A program made the position numbers and the translations under genes. DNA of 64,000 bases from Altererythrobacter sp. C41. GTDB taxonomy: Bacteria > Pseudomonadota > Alphaproteobacteria > Sphingomonadales > Sphingomonadaceae. The stretch spans positions 1 to 64,000 of the forward strand of contig NZ_JAEVFE010000011.1 of assembly GCF_016803135.1 (NCBI RefSeq), given 5' to 3'. The first letter of the stretch is position 1. Each line of letters opens with the position of its first letter. Shown here piece after piece: positions 37,327 to 40,787 of this stretch. A model generated the notes under the pieces. That model did no database searches, was not told the DNA's origin, and saw nothing but the letters and a program-made list of their open reading frames with translations.

Positions 37327-38025
37327 TTAGCGCCAGCCGTTCGCTTTCGCCTCCGCTTCGGCTTCGGCATCGAGGGCCGGGCCTTGTGCCATATCCTGCG
37401 CGCGGGCGAGAAGATCGGCGTCGCTCGCGCCCGCCATGCGGTAGTCGGTCGCAGCGCCGGCACTGCCCTCGCCGAGGGCCTCCAGGCGCCAGCCGTCCCC
37501 GTCGCGGCAGGCGATCCCGCCGCCGCCTTCGCCGCTGAAGACGCGGCAGAATTCGCCGCCCTGCGCGCGGAAACTCAGCAGCACGCGCGTATCCGCACCG
37601 GGCACCTGTTCGGCGACGAGGCGACTGTCGAGCACCGCGGCAAGCTGCGGATCGGCATAGCCCGCCCCGTTGCCGCCGCTTCCCGGCAAGAGCAGTACCA
37701 GCGCGAGCGAGGCAGCCAGCGCCGGTCCCACGATCCAGCCCCAGCGCGGGATAGTGCGTCGCGTCTCGCGGCGTTCCTTCGCCTCGGCGAAGTCGACCAC
37801 TTCGGCCTCCCGCGGCCGGGTCAGCAGGGCCGCGAGGCGATCGGGCACGGGCGCCGCGGCCACCGGCGCGTAATGATCCGCCAGCCGCGCCCGGAGAGCG
37901 CGGTGCGCCTCGACCTCGCCCGCCAGCGCAGGATCGGCGGCGACGGCAGCGGCGACCCGCGCGGCGCGTTCGCCGGTCAGTTCGCCGTCTGCGAAAGCCG
38001 CCAGTTCCTCCCGTGTCACGGTCAT
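37327..38025 (-). CDS. transmembrane anti-sigma factor, partner of the downstream-named ECF sigma
   Basis: A 232-residue membrane protein with anti-sigma architecture. The cytoplasmic N-terminal domain is TREELAAFADGELTGERAARVAAAVAADPALAGEVEAHRAL, without a zinc HxxxCxxC motif. One membrane helix (WGWIVGPALAASLALVLLLPG, near residue 110) is followed by a periplasmic domain with two cysteines (GGEFCRVFSGEGGGGIACRDGDGWRL). The ATG overlaps the sigma gene stop (ATGA), the usual sign of sigma/anti-sigma pairing. The inducing signal is unknown. Confidence 0.88.
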   Translation of the reverse strand: MTVTREELAAFADGELTGERAARVAAAVAADPALAGEVEAHRALRARLADHYAPVAAAPVPDRLAALLTRPREAEVVDFAEAKERRETRRTIPRWGWIVGPALAASLALVLLLPGSGGNGAGYADPQLAAVLDSRLVAEQVPGADTRVLLSFRAQGGEFCRVFSGEGGGGIACRDGDGWRLEALGEGSAGAATDYRMAGASDADLLARAQDMAQGPALDAEAEAEAKANGWR

Positions 38026-38486
38026 TGCGTTTCTCCCAGCATCGCCATCAGCGCGTCGCGCCCGCGCACCAGGCGCGAGTTGAGCGTGCCGACCGGGCAG
38101 CCGGCGATCTCCGCCGCTTCCTTGTAGGCATAGCCTTCGACCATCACGAGCAGCACCGCCTCGCGCTGGTCGGGCGGCAGTTTCTGCATCGCCCGGTCGA
38201 CGTAAGACAGCTCGACCGCGGCTTCCTGCGCGCCGTCGCCGCCCTGCCTTGCACCGGCTTCCTCGTCCACGAAGGTCTGCCTGCGGCGGGTCCCCGCGCG
38301 GCCCTCGTCGATCCAGATGTTGCGCATGATCCTGTACATCCAACTGTCGAGCCGCGTACCTTCCTGCCACCTGGACCGGTTGGCGAGCGCGCGTTCGAGC
38401 GACATCTGGCAGAGGTCGTCGCCGTCCGCAGGATTGCCCGCCAGCCCGGCGGCGAAACGGCGCAGCCGGGGCAGCAGGTCCAGCAA
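38022..38486 (-). CDS. ECF-type RNA polymerase sigma factor
   Basis: At least 154 residues of an ECF sigma factor. Region 2 reads LLPRLRRFAAGLAGNPADGDDLCQMSLERALANRSRWQEGTRLDSWMYRIMRNIWIDE and region 4 reads MQKLPPDQREAVLLVMVEGYAYKEAAEIAGCPVGTLNSRLVRGRDAL. There is no in-frame ATG or GTG. A TTG at 38486 is the annotated start, but a CTG at 38510 has a better-placed GGAAGG/AGAGG ribosome-binding site. The promoter at 38527-38558 reads in both directions. The anti-sigma gene overlaps its end. Confidence 0.9.
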   Translation of the reverse strand: MLDLLPRLRRFAAGLAGNPADGDDLCQMSLERALANRSRWQEGTRLDSWMYRIMRNIWIDEGRAGTRRRQTFVDEEAGARQGGDGAQEAAVELSYVDRAMQKLPPDQREAVLLVMVEGYAYKEAAEIAGCPVGTLNSRLVRGRDALMAMLGETQ

Positions 38487-38526
38487 GTCCTGTTCGAACT
38501 TCGTGCTCAGTGCCTCTGCCTTCCAC

Positions 38527-38558
38527 GGATTAAACGGACGACCCGGTGCGTTTCATCC
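38527..38558. promoter_or_regulatory. palindromic divergent ECF-type promoter
   Basis: On the plus strand GGATTAA-N15-CGTTTC points at the S8 protease gene. On the minus strand the same 32 bases read GGATGAA-N15-CGTTTA and point at the ECF sigma gene. The two 10-base arms (GGATTAAACG and CGTTTCATCC) are near-perfect complements, so the -35 element of each promoter overlaps the -10 element of the other. A copy at 39846-39873 keeps the same elements and the 15-base spacing. This is sequence pattern only; transcription starts have not been seen. Confidence 0.65.
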
Positions 38559-38593
38559 ATGCTTAATCGCTTTCGCGAGACAAGGGACAGCCG

Positions 38594-39844
38594 ATGCGCC
38601 GAATTTTCTTCATTTCCGCCGCCTGCGCCCTGATCGCCGCGCCCCTGTCGGCACAGATCGCGCTGCCGGGCGTGCAGGTGCCCGACATCGGCGGAGTGCT
38701 CGACACCACAACCGACGTGCTCGACCGCACGACGCGCGACCTCCGCGGCACGGTCGAGGAGCTCGCGCGCGACCGGCTGCGGACCATCGACCGGCTCGTC
38801 CGGCGGCACCGCGACGTGATCGAGCGCGACGCCCGCGGCGCACCCGCGCGGCGGGGAGAGATCCTGGTGATGGATGCCTCGGCCGAAGCGCTGGCGGCCG
38901 GCGAGGCGGCGGGCTTTGCCGTCCTCTCGCGAGAAGAGATCGAAGGCCTCGGCTTCGCGGTCGTCCGACTGCAGGTGCCCGAGGGGATGGACCTCGCCGA
39001 AGCCGAGGGCACTCTGGCGCGGCTGATGCCGCAGGCGAGCGTCGCACCCGACAATCTCCACTTCCGGTCGGGCGCCGCGACCCGTTCCGTCCCCCCTCCG
39101 CCGCTTCCGATCGCCGCCGCGGCCGCGACGAGCGGCGGAGCGCCGGTCGGCATGATCGACGGCGCGCCGGGCAAGGCTGCGCCGGTCGTCGCGGTCCGCG
39201 GCTTCGCAAAGGGCGCGCCCTACCCCAGCAACCACGGCAGCGCGATCGCCGCGCTGCTTGCCCACGCCGGGGCCGGCCCGATCCGCGTCGCCGACGTCTT
39301 CGGCACCGACGACGCGGGGGGCAATGCGCTGGCCATGGCCAAGGGGCTCGGCTGGCTGGTCGGTGCGGGCTCGAAAGTGGTGACGATCAGCCTGGTCGGC
39401 CCGCGCAATCCGGTTCTGGAACGCGCGATCGGCGCCGCGCAGCGCAAGGGAGTGGTCGTGGTCGCAGCCGTGGGCAACGGCGGCCCGGCGGCCCCACCCG
39501 CCTATCCCGCATCGTACGACGGGGTAGTCGCAGTGACCGCGGTCGACGGCAAGCGCCGCGCGCTGATCGAGGCGGGCCGTGCGCTCCATCTCGACTATGC
39601 CGCGCCCGGCGCCGACATTCACGGCATCGATGCCGAGGGAGACCGGGTGCGCCTGCGCGGCACCTCGTTCGCAACGCCGCTCGTTGCAGCACGGGCTGCG
39701 CTGGCGATCGGGCGAGGCCGCGCCTGGCGCGCGGCACTCGACGCGCAGGCCGAAGACCTCGGGCGCGAGGGGCCGGACGATACTTATGGCCGCGGCCTGA
39801 TCTGCGGTTCCTGCGAGGGCGTGCCGAAAAAATCTCGCGACTGA
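38594..39844 (+). CDS. secreted S8 (subtilisin-like) serine protease
   Basis: A 416-residue exported serine protease. Signal peptide MRRIFFISAACALIAAPLSAQ. Residues 22-165 are a helical and mixed pro-region unlike the common inhibitor_I9 prodomain. The catalytic triad is intact but embedded in shortened motifs: Asp189 (GMIDGAPG), His214 (SNHGSAIAALLA), Ser358 (GTSFATPLVAAR), with oxyanion Asn295 (AVGNGG). The C-terminus carries two close cysteines (ICGSC). Gene start has an AAGGGA ribosome-binding site. It is divergent from the ECF sigma gene and shares its palindromic promoter, so it is probably a target of that sigma factor. Confidence 0.88.
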   Translation: MRRIFFISAACALIAAPLSAQIALPGVQVPDIGGVLDTTTDVLDRTTRDLRGTVEELARDRLRTIDRLVRRHRDVIERDARGAPARRGEILVMDASAEALAAGEAAGFAVLSREEIEGLGFAVVRLQVPEGMDLAEAEGTLARLMPQASVAPDNLHFRSGAATRSVPPPPLPIAAAAATSGGAPVGMIDGAPGKAAPVVAVRGFAKGAPYPSNHGSAIAALLAHAGAGPIRVADVFGTDDAGGNALAMAKGLGWLVGAGSKVVTISLVGPRNPVLERAIGAAQRKGVVVVAAVGNGGPAAPPAYPASYDGVVAVTAVDGKRRALIEAGRALHLDYAAPGADIHGIDAEGDRVRLRGTSFATPLVAARAALAIGRGRAWRAALDAQAEDLGREGPDDTYGRGLICGSCEGVPKKSRD

Positions 39845-39845
39845 T

Positions 39846-39873
39846 GGATTAAGCGCCCCGGGGCGTCCGTTTC
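39846..39873 (+). promoter_or_regulatory. putative ECF-sigma promoter of the Ala/Gly-rich secreted protein gene
   Basis: GGATTAA, a 15-base spacer and CGTTTC repeat exactly the elements and spacing of the plus-strand promoter at 38527-38554. The element begins immediately after the S8 protease stop codon and ends 56 bases before the start of the Ala/Gly-rich gene. Unlike the first copy it is not palindromic and should act in one direction only. Confidence 0.6.
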
Positions 39874-39929: not shown

Positions 39930-40787
39930 ATGAAGAACCTTCTTCTCGCAGCTTCGGCTCTCACACTGTTCGCCGCGCCCGCGCACGCACAGCTCCTTGG
40001 CGGCAGCGGCGGCGCGCTCGGCGGCCTCGGCGGCACGGTGAACGGCGCGATCAATTCGACCCTGCGCACTTCGACCGATTCGATCCGCTCGACCACCCGC
40101 AGCACCGTGCGCGGCGATGCCCGGACCCGCGGCGAGCAGCATGTCGACCATCGCTCCGGCGAGGTCTCGGTCGACCGCTCGCTCGACGCGAGCGTCGATG
40201 GTGCGGCCTCTCAGCTTCTTGAGGGTCCGGCGGGTTCGACCAATGGTAACGCCTCCGCTTCGGGCAGTGCTTCCGGCTCGGTGGGTGCCGACGCGCAGCT
40301 CGTGGGCACCGACGCGGTTCGCGGCCTCGCCGCGCAGGGCGTCGCCACGGCCGGCGAAGGCGTCGCCGCGGTCCGCGGCAGTGCGGCCGGTGCGGCGAGC
40401 GCGGCGGGCGATCTCGCCGCCTCGGCCAGCGGCAACGGCTCGGCCGCGGGTTCGGCGGCCGGATCGGGCGCGGCCGGTCTCGGCTCCGGCATGCTGGCTG
40501 CTGCCGGCAGCGCAGCCGCGGCAGCGGACGGCGCGTTCTCCGTCGCCCCGGGCATGCCGGTCGTGACGCCCGAGGGCGCGCAGCTCGGCACGGTCAGCGA
40601 AGTCGTCGCCGACCAGCAGGGCCGCGTGCAGCAGGCGCTCGTCGCCACGCCAGACGGAACCGCGACCATCCCCGCGGCCGACCTCAGCGCCAGCGGCGAC
40701 GCTCTGGTCGCCGGCACCGGCACCCTCTCCACTGCCAGTGAAGGCGCGACCAGCTCCGCAACGCAAGGTGACGCGTCCCCCCGTTAA
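39930..40787 (+). CDS. secreted Ala/Gly/Ser-rich protein with PRC-barrel-like C-terminus
   Basis: A 285-residue exported protein of unknown function. Signal peptide MKNLLLAASALTLFAAPAHA. The middle (about 100-200) is low-complexity Ala/Gly/Ser with repeated short motifs. A more ordered region at about 205-260 (APGMPVVTPEGAQLGTVSEVVADQQGRVQQALVATPDGTATIPAADL) resembles a PRC-barrel strand pattern. No catalytic motif is seen. It is preceded by the same promoter type as the S8 protease gene and followed by a strong terminator, so it is a single-gene unit of the presumed ECF regulon. Confidence 0.8.
   Translation: MKNLLLAASALTLFAAPAHAQLLGGSGGALGGLGGTVNGAINSTLRTSTDSIRSTTRSTVRGDARTRGEQHVDHRSGEVSVDRSLDASVDGAASQLLEGPAGSTNGNASASGSASGSVGADAQLVGTDAVRGLAAQGVATAGEGVAAVRGSAAGAASAAGDLAASASGNGSAAGSAAGSGAAGLGSGMLAAAGSAAAAADGAFSVAPGMPVVTPEGAQLGTVSEVVADQQGRVQQALVATPDGTATIPAADLSASGDALVAGTGTLSTASEGATSSATQGDASPR

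Follow-up and report, generated by a model that had tools for sequence, protein, structure and literature searches.

The 32-bp palindrome between a sigma factor gene and a secreted protease gene of Altererythrobacter sp. C41 is best explained, as a whole, as two promoters of the neighboring ECF26-like sigma factor that would be superposed in opposite directions. We put the probability of this reading at about 0.88. Four kinds of observation point to it: the sequence of the site, its conservation, its co-variation with a one-way (non-palindromic) copy of the promoter beyond the protease gene, and its restriction to one sigma lineage. The palindrome occupies positions 38527..38558 of the window, the whole stretch of 64,000 nucleotides that was analysed, and has the form GGATTAAACG-N12-CGTTTCATCC (all 32 bases: GGATTAAACGGACGACCCGGTGCGTTTCATCC). 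In other words, two half-sites (38527-38536 and 38549-38558) surround a free 12-bp middle, and their centers are 22 bp, or two helical turns, apart.

The palindrome contains two opposed ECF-type promoters, GGATNAA-N15-CGTTT. The protease-side promoter lies on the plus strand (38527..38553), with its -35 element GGATTAA at 38527-38533 and its -10 element CGTTT at 38549-38553. The promoter on the sigma/anti-sigma side lies on the minus strand (38532..38558), with its -35 element GGATGAA at 38558-38552 and its -10 element CGTTT at 38536-38532. The initial annotation had placed GGATTAA-N15-CGTTTC on the plus strand from 38527 and GGATGAA-N15-CGTTTA on the minus strand from 38558, and both are found there. 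Its description of the -10 of one promoter as the complement of the -35 of the other needs correction, because the two elements adjoin and consist of different bases. Each 10-bp half-site holds the -35 heptamer GGATNAA end to end with the -10 core CGTT of the opposite strand (AACG when reversed), with an overlap of 1 base, or of 2 bases if the -10 is written CGTTT. Three matches to GGATNAA-N14..17-CGTTT occur in the window, against 0.04 expected from 100 shuffles, and the third of them is the one-way site at 39846. The exact form GGATTAA-N14..17-CGTTT occurs only twice in the whole genome, at 38527 and 39846, and three of the seven genomic copies of GGATNAA-N15-CGTT are located at the sigma/protease locus. 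Transcription is predicted to start at ~38559-38561 (plus strand) and ~38526-38524 (minus strand), 33-37 bp apart. This prediction was made because the mapped start of SMa0142, the corresponding protease gene of Sinorhizobium (S.) meliloti with the promoter GGAATAG-N14-CGTT, lies 9 nt after CGTT, and 7-9 nt were allowed (PMC6180224, cited here, like the papers below, for the part of its text that was available). Since the predicted transcripts begin outside the palindrome, an RNA hairpin or terminator is an unlikely reading of the symmetry.

The sigma gene (38022..38510, minus strand) encodes an ECF26-like factor and probably starts at a CTG codon (38510-38508). The list of open reading frames starts it at TTG 38486; the conserved frame extends back to CTG 38508-38510. 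At the aligned start position, the 123 palindrome-bearing loci described below show CTG in 43 cases, ATG, GTG or TTG within -15 to +3 in 73, and neither in 7. Being a weak start codon, CTG may limit how much sigma is made, and automated gene prediction would put the N terminus in the wrong place. The protein shows 43.9% identity, across 89% of its length, to its counterpart at the RpoE6-type locus on S. meliloti pSymA (strain ml59). A putative membrane anti-sigma factor gene follows (37327..38025, minus strand), and its ATG overlaps the sigma stop codon. Its product has an NCBIfam anti-sigma match (E 2.3e-9) under the curated cutoff, no Pfam match, and a hydrophobic segment as judged by eye. 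On the plus strand, 83 bp separate the sigma CTG (38510) from the ATG (38594) of a secreted S8 (subtilase) serine protease gene (38594..39844; Pfam Peptidase_S8, E 1.9e-15), whose N terminus is signal-peptide-like, again by eye. The one-way promoter GGATTAA-N15-CGTT (39846..39871, plus strand), which is not palindromic, comes just past the protease stop codon and before a gene for a secreted-type protein (39930..40787, plus strand), whose match to the PRC-barrel family is weak (E 6.6e-4; 20.1 bits, cutoff 21.2). This gene is a probable third target of the sigma. How well does the locus fit the ECF26 group? A divergent serine protease gene, a trait of the RpoE6 subset of ECF26, is present here in the form of the Peptidase_S8 match, and the -10 CGTT includes the GT of the ECF26 motif. 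Anti-sigma partners in this group have an N-terminal anti-sigma domain and a transmembrane segment, to which the sub-cutoff NCBIfam match and the hydrophobic segment judged by eye may correspond. The -35 departs from the ECF26 element GGAATA in that base 4 is T in 112 of the 123 loci and A in 11. By these sequence features, the sigma would be a variant of the ECF26 group or a neighbor of it.

Is the palindrome conserved? Sigma protein searches in 98 genomes and then in 397 genomes of the family yielded 130 loci (24 and 106, respectively), which were picked regardless of the palindrome. Left out of these, from the 30 loci of the first search, were L027-L032, which showed 41-44% identity, no S8 or anti-sigma match, and no palindrome. 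The palindrome was present with at most two mismatches in 123 of the 130 loci (99 exact, 14 with one mismatch, and 10 with two), and every one of the 123 had an S8 match on the opposite strand. The length of 32 was invariant. Half-site positions carried 1.8-2.0 bits each, except for positions 4, 5, 28, and 29 (0.9-1.6 bits). The middle 12 bp carried 0.03-0.97 bits, and the 25 bases on each flank no more than 0.64 bits. Positions 8, 9, and 10 were A, C, and G, and positions 30 and 32 were T and C, in all 123 loci. The protease-side -35 was looser than that of the sigma side, its base 4 being T in 107 loci, A in 8, G in 6, and C in 2. In the four genomes where the locus is duplicated (G115, G255, G349, and G355), both copies had the palindrome, all eight within one mismatch. 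Single-base shuffles gave no site in 2600 stretches of 1500 nt, and the conservation of the palindrome is not due to chance. One locus (L008) has a second near-palindromic site (226-257), with two mismatches, beyond the anti-sigma gene. The seven loci that lacked the palindrome were L025, L026, L263, and L264, which kept a divergent S8 gene; L023 and L024, which had no divergent S8 match; and L262, which lies at a contig end.

Further evidence comes from a blind DNA scan. One genome per species, from 84,980 species, was scanned for GGATNAAACG-N12-CGTTTNATCC, which gave at least 119 loci. Of the 119 matches listed, 103 were flanked by a sigma homologue and by a divergent S8 gene within 150 bp. 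Seven more had the sigma gene and less than 700 bp of sequence on the other side. At L085 the S8 frame lay ~234 bp from the palindrome, and at L053 the S8 gene was visible with the sigma side past the end of the stretch. An exact palindrome in L090 (2770-2801) lay upstream of a sigma homologue, and its divergent neighbor, ~218 bp off, was an nhaA antiporter gene. The anti-sigma match of L090 is split over two frames, and the locus has perhaps been rearranged recently. Neither gene accompanied the remaining six listed matches, which came from distant groups (e.g., Paenibacillus, Exiguobacterium, a cyanobacterium, and Bifidobacterium) and look like chance. The 80 matches listed by name include many Sphingomonadales, together with Brevundimonas, Caulobacter, and another Caulobacteraceae genome. 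The initial annotation had made its proposal depend on conservation of the palindrome in relatives that keep the sigma-protease pair, and this conservation was found both in the protein-found loci (123/130) and among the DNA-found matches listed (103/119).

More specific evidence for two promoters came from the one-way sites. A GGAWNRA-N14..16-CGTT site was found 4-347 nt past the end of the S8 frame in 95 of the 130 protein-found loci. In 67 of these 95 a PRC-type match came next on the same strand, and several of the other 28 were short stretches. Among the 35 loci with no such site, 8 were too short or offered no S8 match that could be used, and 27 lacked the pattern (27 of 122 searchable loci); a looser look gave candidates in 2 of the 27. 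The comparison with the palindrome used the first match per locus and 94 sites, all with N15, after L255 (spacing N14) was dropped. The search pattern fixes most of the -35 and the CGTT, and therefore only the free positions test anything. At these positions the two kinds of site differed sharply: of the 94 one-way sites, 5 had ACG at positions 8-10 and none had the mirror tail, against 123 of 123 and 111 of 123 palindromes, respectively. The sites that lack a mirror half indicate that the palindrome consists of two superposed promoters and is not the operator of a regulator. In other words, the sigma would not need symmetry for recognition, and what the palindrome conserves beyond a one-way site would be the bases of a second promoter.

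The palindrome also co-varied with the one-way site. All 94 loci had the same base at position 4 of the -35 in the sigma-side promoter as in the one-way site (83 T/T and 11 A/A). The A-form loci comprised the ten of one genus, g42 (L018, L228, L230, L231, L236, L239, L240, L242, L243, and L249; split support 0.99), and L261, which belongs to another, otherwise T-type group (0.95). The A forms fall into two distinct lineages, each with support, so changes that affected both sites took place on at least two occasions. The protease-side -35 of the g42 loci mismatched the sigma side in 3 of 10 (two GGACGAA and one GGATGAA). A search for sigma residues that track -35 position 4 gave six columns that pass a simple filter and show clade-like differences, and the deep relatives with GGAATAA-type promoters do not consistently follow these columns. 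The g42 and L261 loci are a natural case of -35 elements that drift in step across a set of promoters.

The same kind of promoter may serve a gene elsewhere in the genome. A GGATTAA-N15-CGTT site on contig 7 (20770; L265 771-796) lies upstream of a gene for an outer-membrane-type protein (L265 836-1657). The gene was found at 89% identity or more in 4 of 7 genomes of the genus, its own included, one of them with a stop inside the match. A one-way site just upstream was kept in all four genus genomes with a close copy (L311-L314 examined), and 9 distant homologues in other genera had no such site directly upstream. From this pattern, the outer-membrane-type gene is a likely further target.

Where does the palindrome come from? 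A class-wide sigma protein search in 387 genomes was followed up for the best 30 of 45 places, which gave 29 examined loci (L282-L310), among them one repeat (L282 repeats L177). An exact palindrome with a divergent S8 gene was present in L282, L283, L299, and L304. The other 25 had no palindrome; in 19 of them a one-way promoter of the GGAATA or GGAAGA type faced the sigma gene, 4 had a divergent S8 match, and 2 had an S8 match on the same strand. Three loci without the palindrome but with a divergent S8 gene (L025, L263, and L306) show two separate back-to-back promoters instead. A sigma tree was built from 168 proteins, with L061 (too short), L262 (cut), and L282 (the repeat) left out; its 10 Caulobacterales-type loci had been picked because they carry the palindrome. 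The 136 palindrome-bearing sigmas grouped with no others inside. The support for this split was 0.09, and that for the split of the 136 plus L024 was 0.97. L024 has no palindrome, and its S8 match is on the sigma strand with none divergent. From these supports, the palindrome is a trait of a single, well-supported lineage of sigmas, and L024 either stands beside that lineage or lost the palindrome. For many sigma homologues that fall outside the palindromic group, the spacer before CGTT is 14 bases long; it is 15 bases in the palindrome and in 94 of the 95 one-way sites.

These results bear on several other explanations of the symmetry. A half-site spacing of two helical turns suits dimeric regulators, and the perfect dyad in the half-sites, with centers 22 bp apart, could suggest the operator of a dimeric transcription factor. 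Such an operator would have both half-sites at other sites of the same kind, and none of the 94 one-way sites does; they show the same -35, -10, and spacing past the S8 gene without the mirror half. Furthermore, 19 of the 25 sigma homologue loci without a palindrome carry a related one-way promoter. An operator is therefore extremely unlikely. The looser protease-side -35 might instead mean that only one promoter works and that the symmetry is incidental. This idea is hardly tenable in view of the invariant A, C, and G at positions 8-10 and T and C at positions 30 and 32 of all 123 palindromes, bases that the one-way sites almost never (ACG, 5/94) or never (mirror tail, 0/94) share. Another option is that both promoters work and are read by a different alphaproteobacterial ECF factor such as EcfG. 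The common CGTT -10 would permit this, and the targets of RpoE6 and RpoE2 overlap in S. meliloti by 27 genes in the available text of PMC6180224. The EcfG motif has GGAAC, and that of Sphingomonas melonis is GGAAC-N17-20-GTT. Against this, position 4 here is T (112/123) or A (11/123), position 5 is C in only 1 of 123, and a single sigma lineage has the palindrome, which makes reading by EcfG or a similar factor very unlikely. The EcfG analogue of the palindrome, GGAACG-N15/16-CGTTCC, was not enriched in 40 genomes, with 19 sites in 14 of them against 64 for the backwards-read pattern. This count speaks against palindromy as a general feature of ECF promoters.

A further possibility concerns only the consequence and is compatible with two superposed promoters. 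Both promoters would be real, and their overlap would be an economical form of co-activation with negligible competition and no switch. We regard this as somewhat more probable than its opposite. In its favor, bidirectional promoters of E. coli at basal activity work without competition (PMC12825309, available part). On the other side, the 32-bp register is unvaried in 123 loci, even though L025, L263, and L306 manage with separate back-to-back promoters, and an induced ECF promoter may be strong, which is the condition under which competition is described for E. coli in the same source. The superposed-promoter reading itself has points against it. Seven of the 130 loci have no palindrome, L090 keeps its palindrome beside nhaA, and the S. 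meliloti sigma gene was assigned an RpoD/RpoH-like promoter (PMC6180224, available part). Weighed together, the observations still favor two superposed promoters of the ECF26-like sigma.

How would one site serve two operons? When the anti-sigma releases the sigma, the holoenzyme would land on the palindrome in either direction, with sigma region 4 on GGATNAA of one half-site and region 2 on CGTT of the other; rotated by 180 degrees, it would read the opposite strand. Each landing would yield either sigma/anti-sigma RNA or protease RNA, and a single landing site would thereby let free sigma raise both its own operon (sigma and anti-sigma) and the secreted S8 protease. One-way copies of the promoter would drive the secreted protein of PRC-barrel type and, in part of the genus, the outer-membrane-type protein. 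Reading by the ECF26-like sigma, the start sites, exclusion, competition, and any effect on output are what we infer from the sequence evidence. Activation of the protease by the sigma is additionally backed by experiment in a homologue, RpoE6 of S. meliloti (PMC6180224, in the part available), and would hold here by analogy. The conservation of the site (123/130, and 103/119 among the listed matches) backs the proposal of the initial annotation that a single site would autoregulate the sigma and fire the protease. Because each half-site serves both promoters, one polymerase would be loaded at a time and the two outputs would share, and compete for, the site. The mutual exclusion proposed earlier gains from this overlap, which makes simultaneous loading implausible. 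The switching proposed with it fares less well, as competition at the E. coli promoters occurs only under substantial one-way activation (PMC12825309, available part). A mutual-exclusion switch between the operons is possible, and plain co-activation in which competition hardly matters is no less likely.

We suggest, tentatively and at less than even odds, that such sites form a distinct class of bidirectional promoter, with reciprocal -35 and -10 elements, one sigma lineage (Sphingomonadales and Caulobacterales), an exact register, and a built-in limiter. If the limiter is real, a protease-facing holoenzyme cannot make more sigma, and the positive autoregulation has to be shared with the output gene. 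The promoter preference of the sigma also could not change without changing both genes. The arrangement would tie the sigma, its likely inhibitor, and a main target to one symmetric site. Each half-site base should affect two genes in opposite directions, so that the site could be dissected base by base. It is also a small, naturally occurring system for asking whether positive feedback is adjusted by polymerases that compete at a single promoter.

Among the closest known systems is the RpoE6 locus of S. meliloti. RpoE6 (ECF26), the anti-sigma EcfR6, and the divergent serine protease SMa0142 form an arrangement that the available text of PMC6180224 terms widely conserved in ECF26, and overexpression of RpoE6 raises ecfR6 and SMa0142 there. 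Its authors argue for autogenous control but point out that a separate RpoE6-dependent promoter within rpoE6 may serve ecfR6, and they assign RpoD/RpoH-like motifs to the region upstream of rpoE6. The gene set is the same as here, and the sigma activates the protease in that system. However, its -35 is GGAATA, with N14 to CGTT at SMa0142, and the protease promoter stands alone. The pSymA locus of strain ml59 has the order VOC protein, S8 peptidase, sigma, and anti-sigma, and a pattern scan of its sigma/S8 gap detected one promoter, which faces the protease, and no palindrome.

The sigma70 bidirectional promoters described by Warman, Grainger and colleagues (PMC12825309 and PMC10268837, both in part) have near-symmetric DNA and two mutually exclusive polymerase loadings. 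The present site shares with their description a pseudo-symmetric sequence able to load polymerase both ways. In the sigma70 promoters the starts diverge around or within one shared -10 and are mostly 18 bp apart, also 10 or 23 bp (PMC12825309, available part). The present site instead has two -10 cores at opposite ends; its -35 and -10 elements are exchanged between the strands, and it would be read by an ECF sigma whose own gene lies beside it. It would work like a bidirectional promoter, but with a different geometry. A Salmonella census counted bidirectional start pairs 7-25 bp apart and, on the range given in the available text, would have missed this geometry (PMC10268837). At hrpL/hrpJ of Pseudomonas syringae, hrpL is repressed when an ECF holoenzyme occupies the promoter of the divergent hrpJ, which amounts to negative feedback by occupancy (PMC5263251, available part). 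There, however, the elements are adjacent and do not form one palindrome, and hrpL depends on sigma54 and hrpJ on HrpL. The EcfG/PhyR general stress locus of Alphaproteobacteria has two divergent units that use the same ECF sigma (PMC8103513, available part), but the corresponding EcfG palindrome was not enriched in the 40-genome count given above. A full-text literature search, with subscription papers largely outside its scope, found no description of a palindromic shared ECF promoter among the papers listed. The statement of the initial annotation that this arrangement had no prior description must be narrowed accordingly, since the pairing of sigma and divergent protease is already in print (PMC6180224, available part), and it holds for the fused palindromic promoter as far as that search extends. 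Bidirectional promoters and the sigma-protease pairing are known; what appears to be new is the reciprocal -35/-10 geometry of the fused ECF site.
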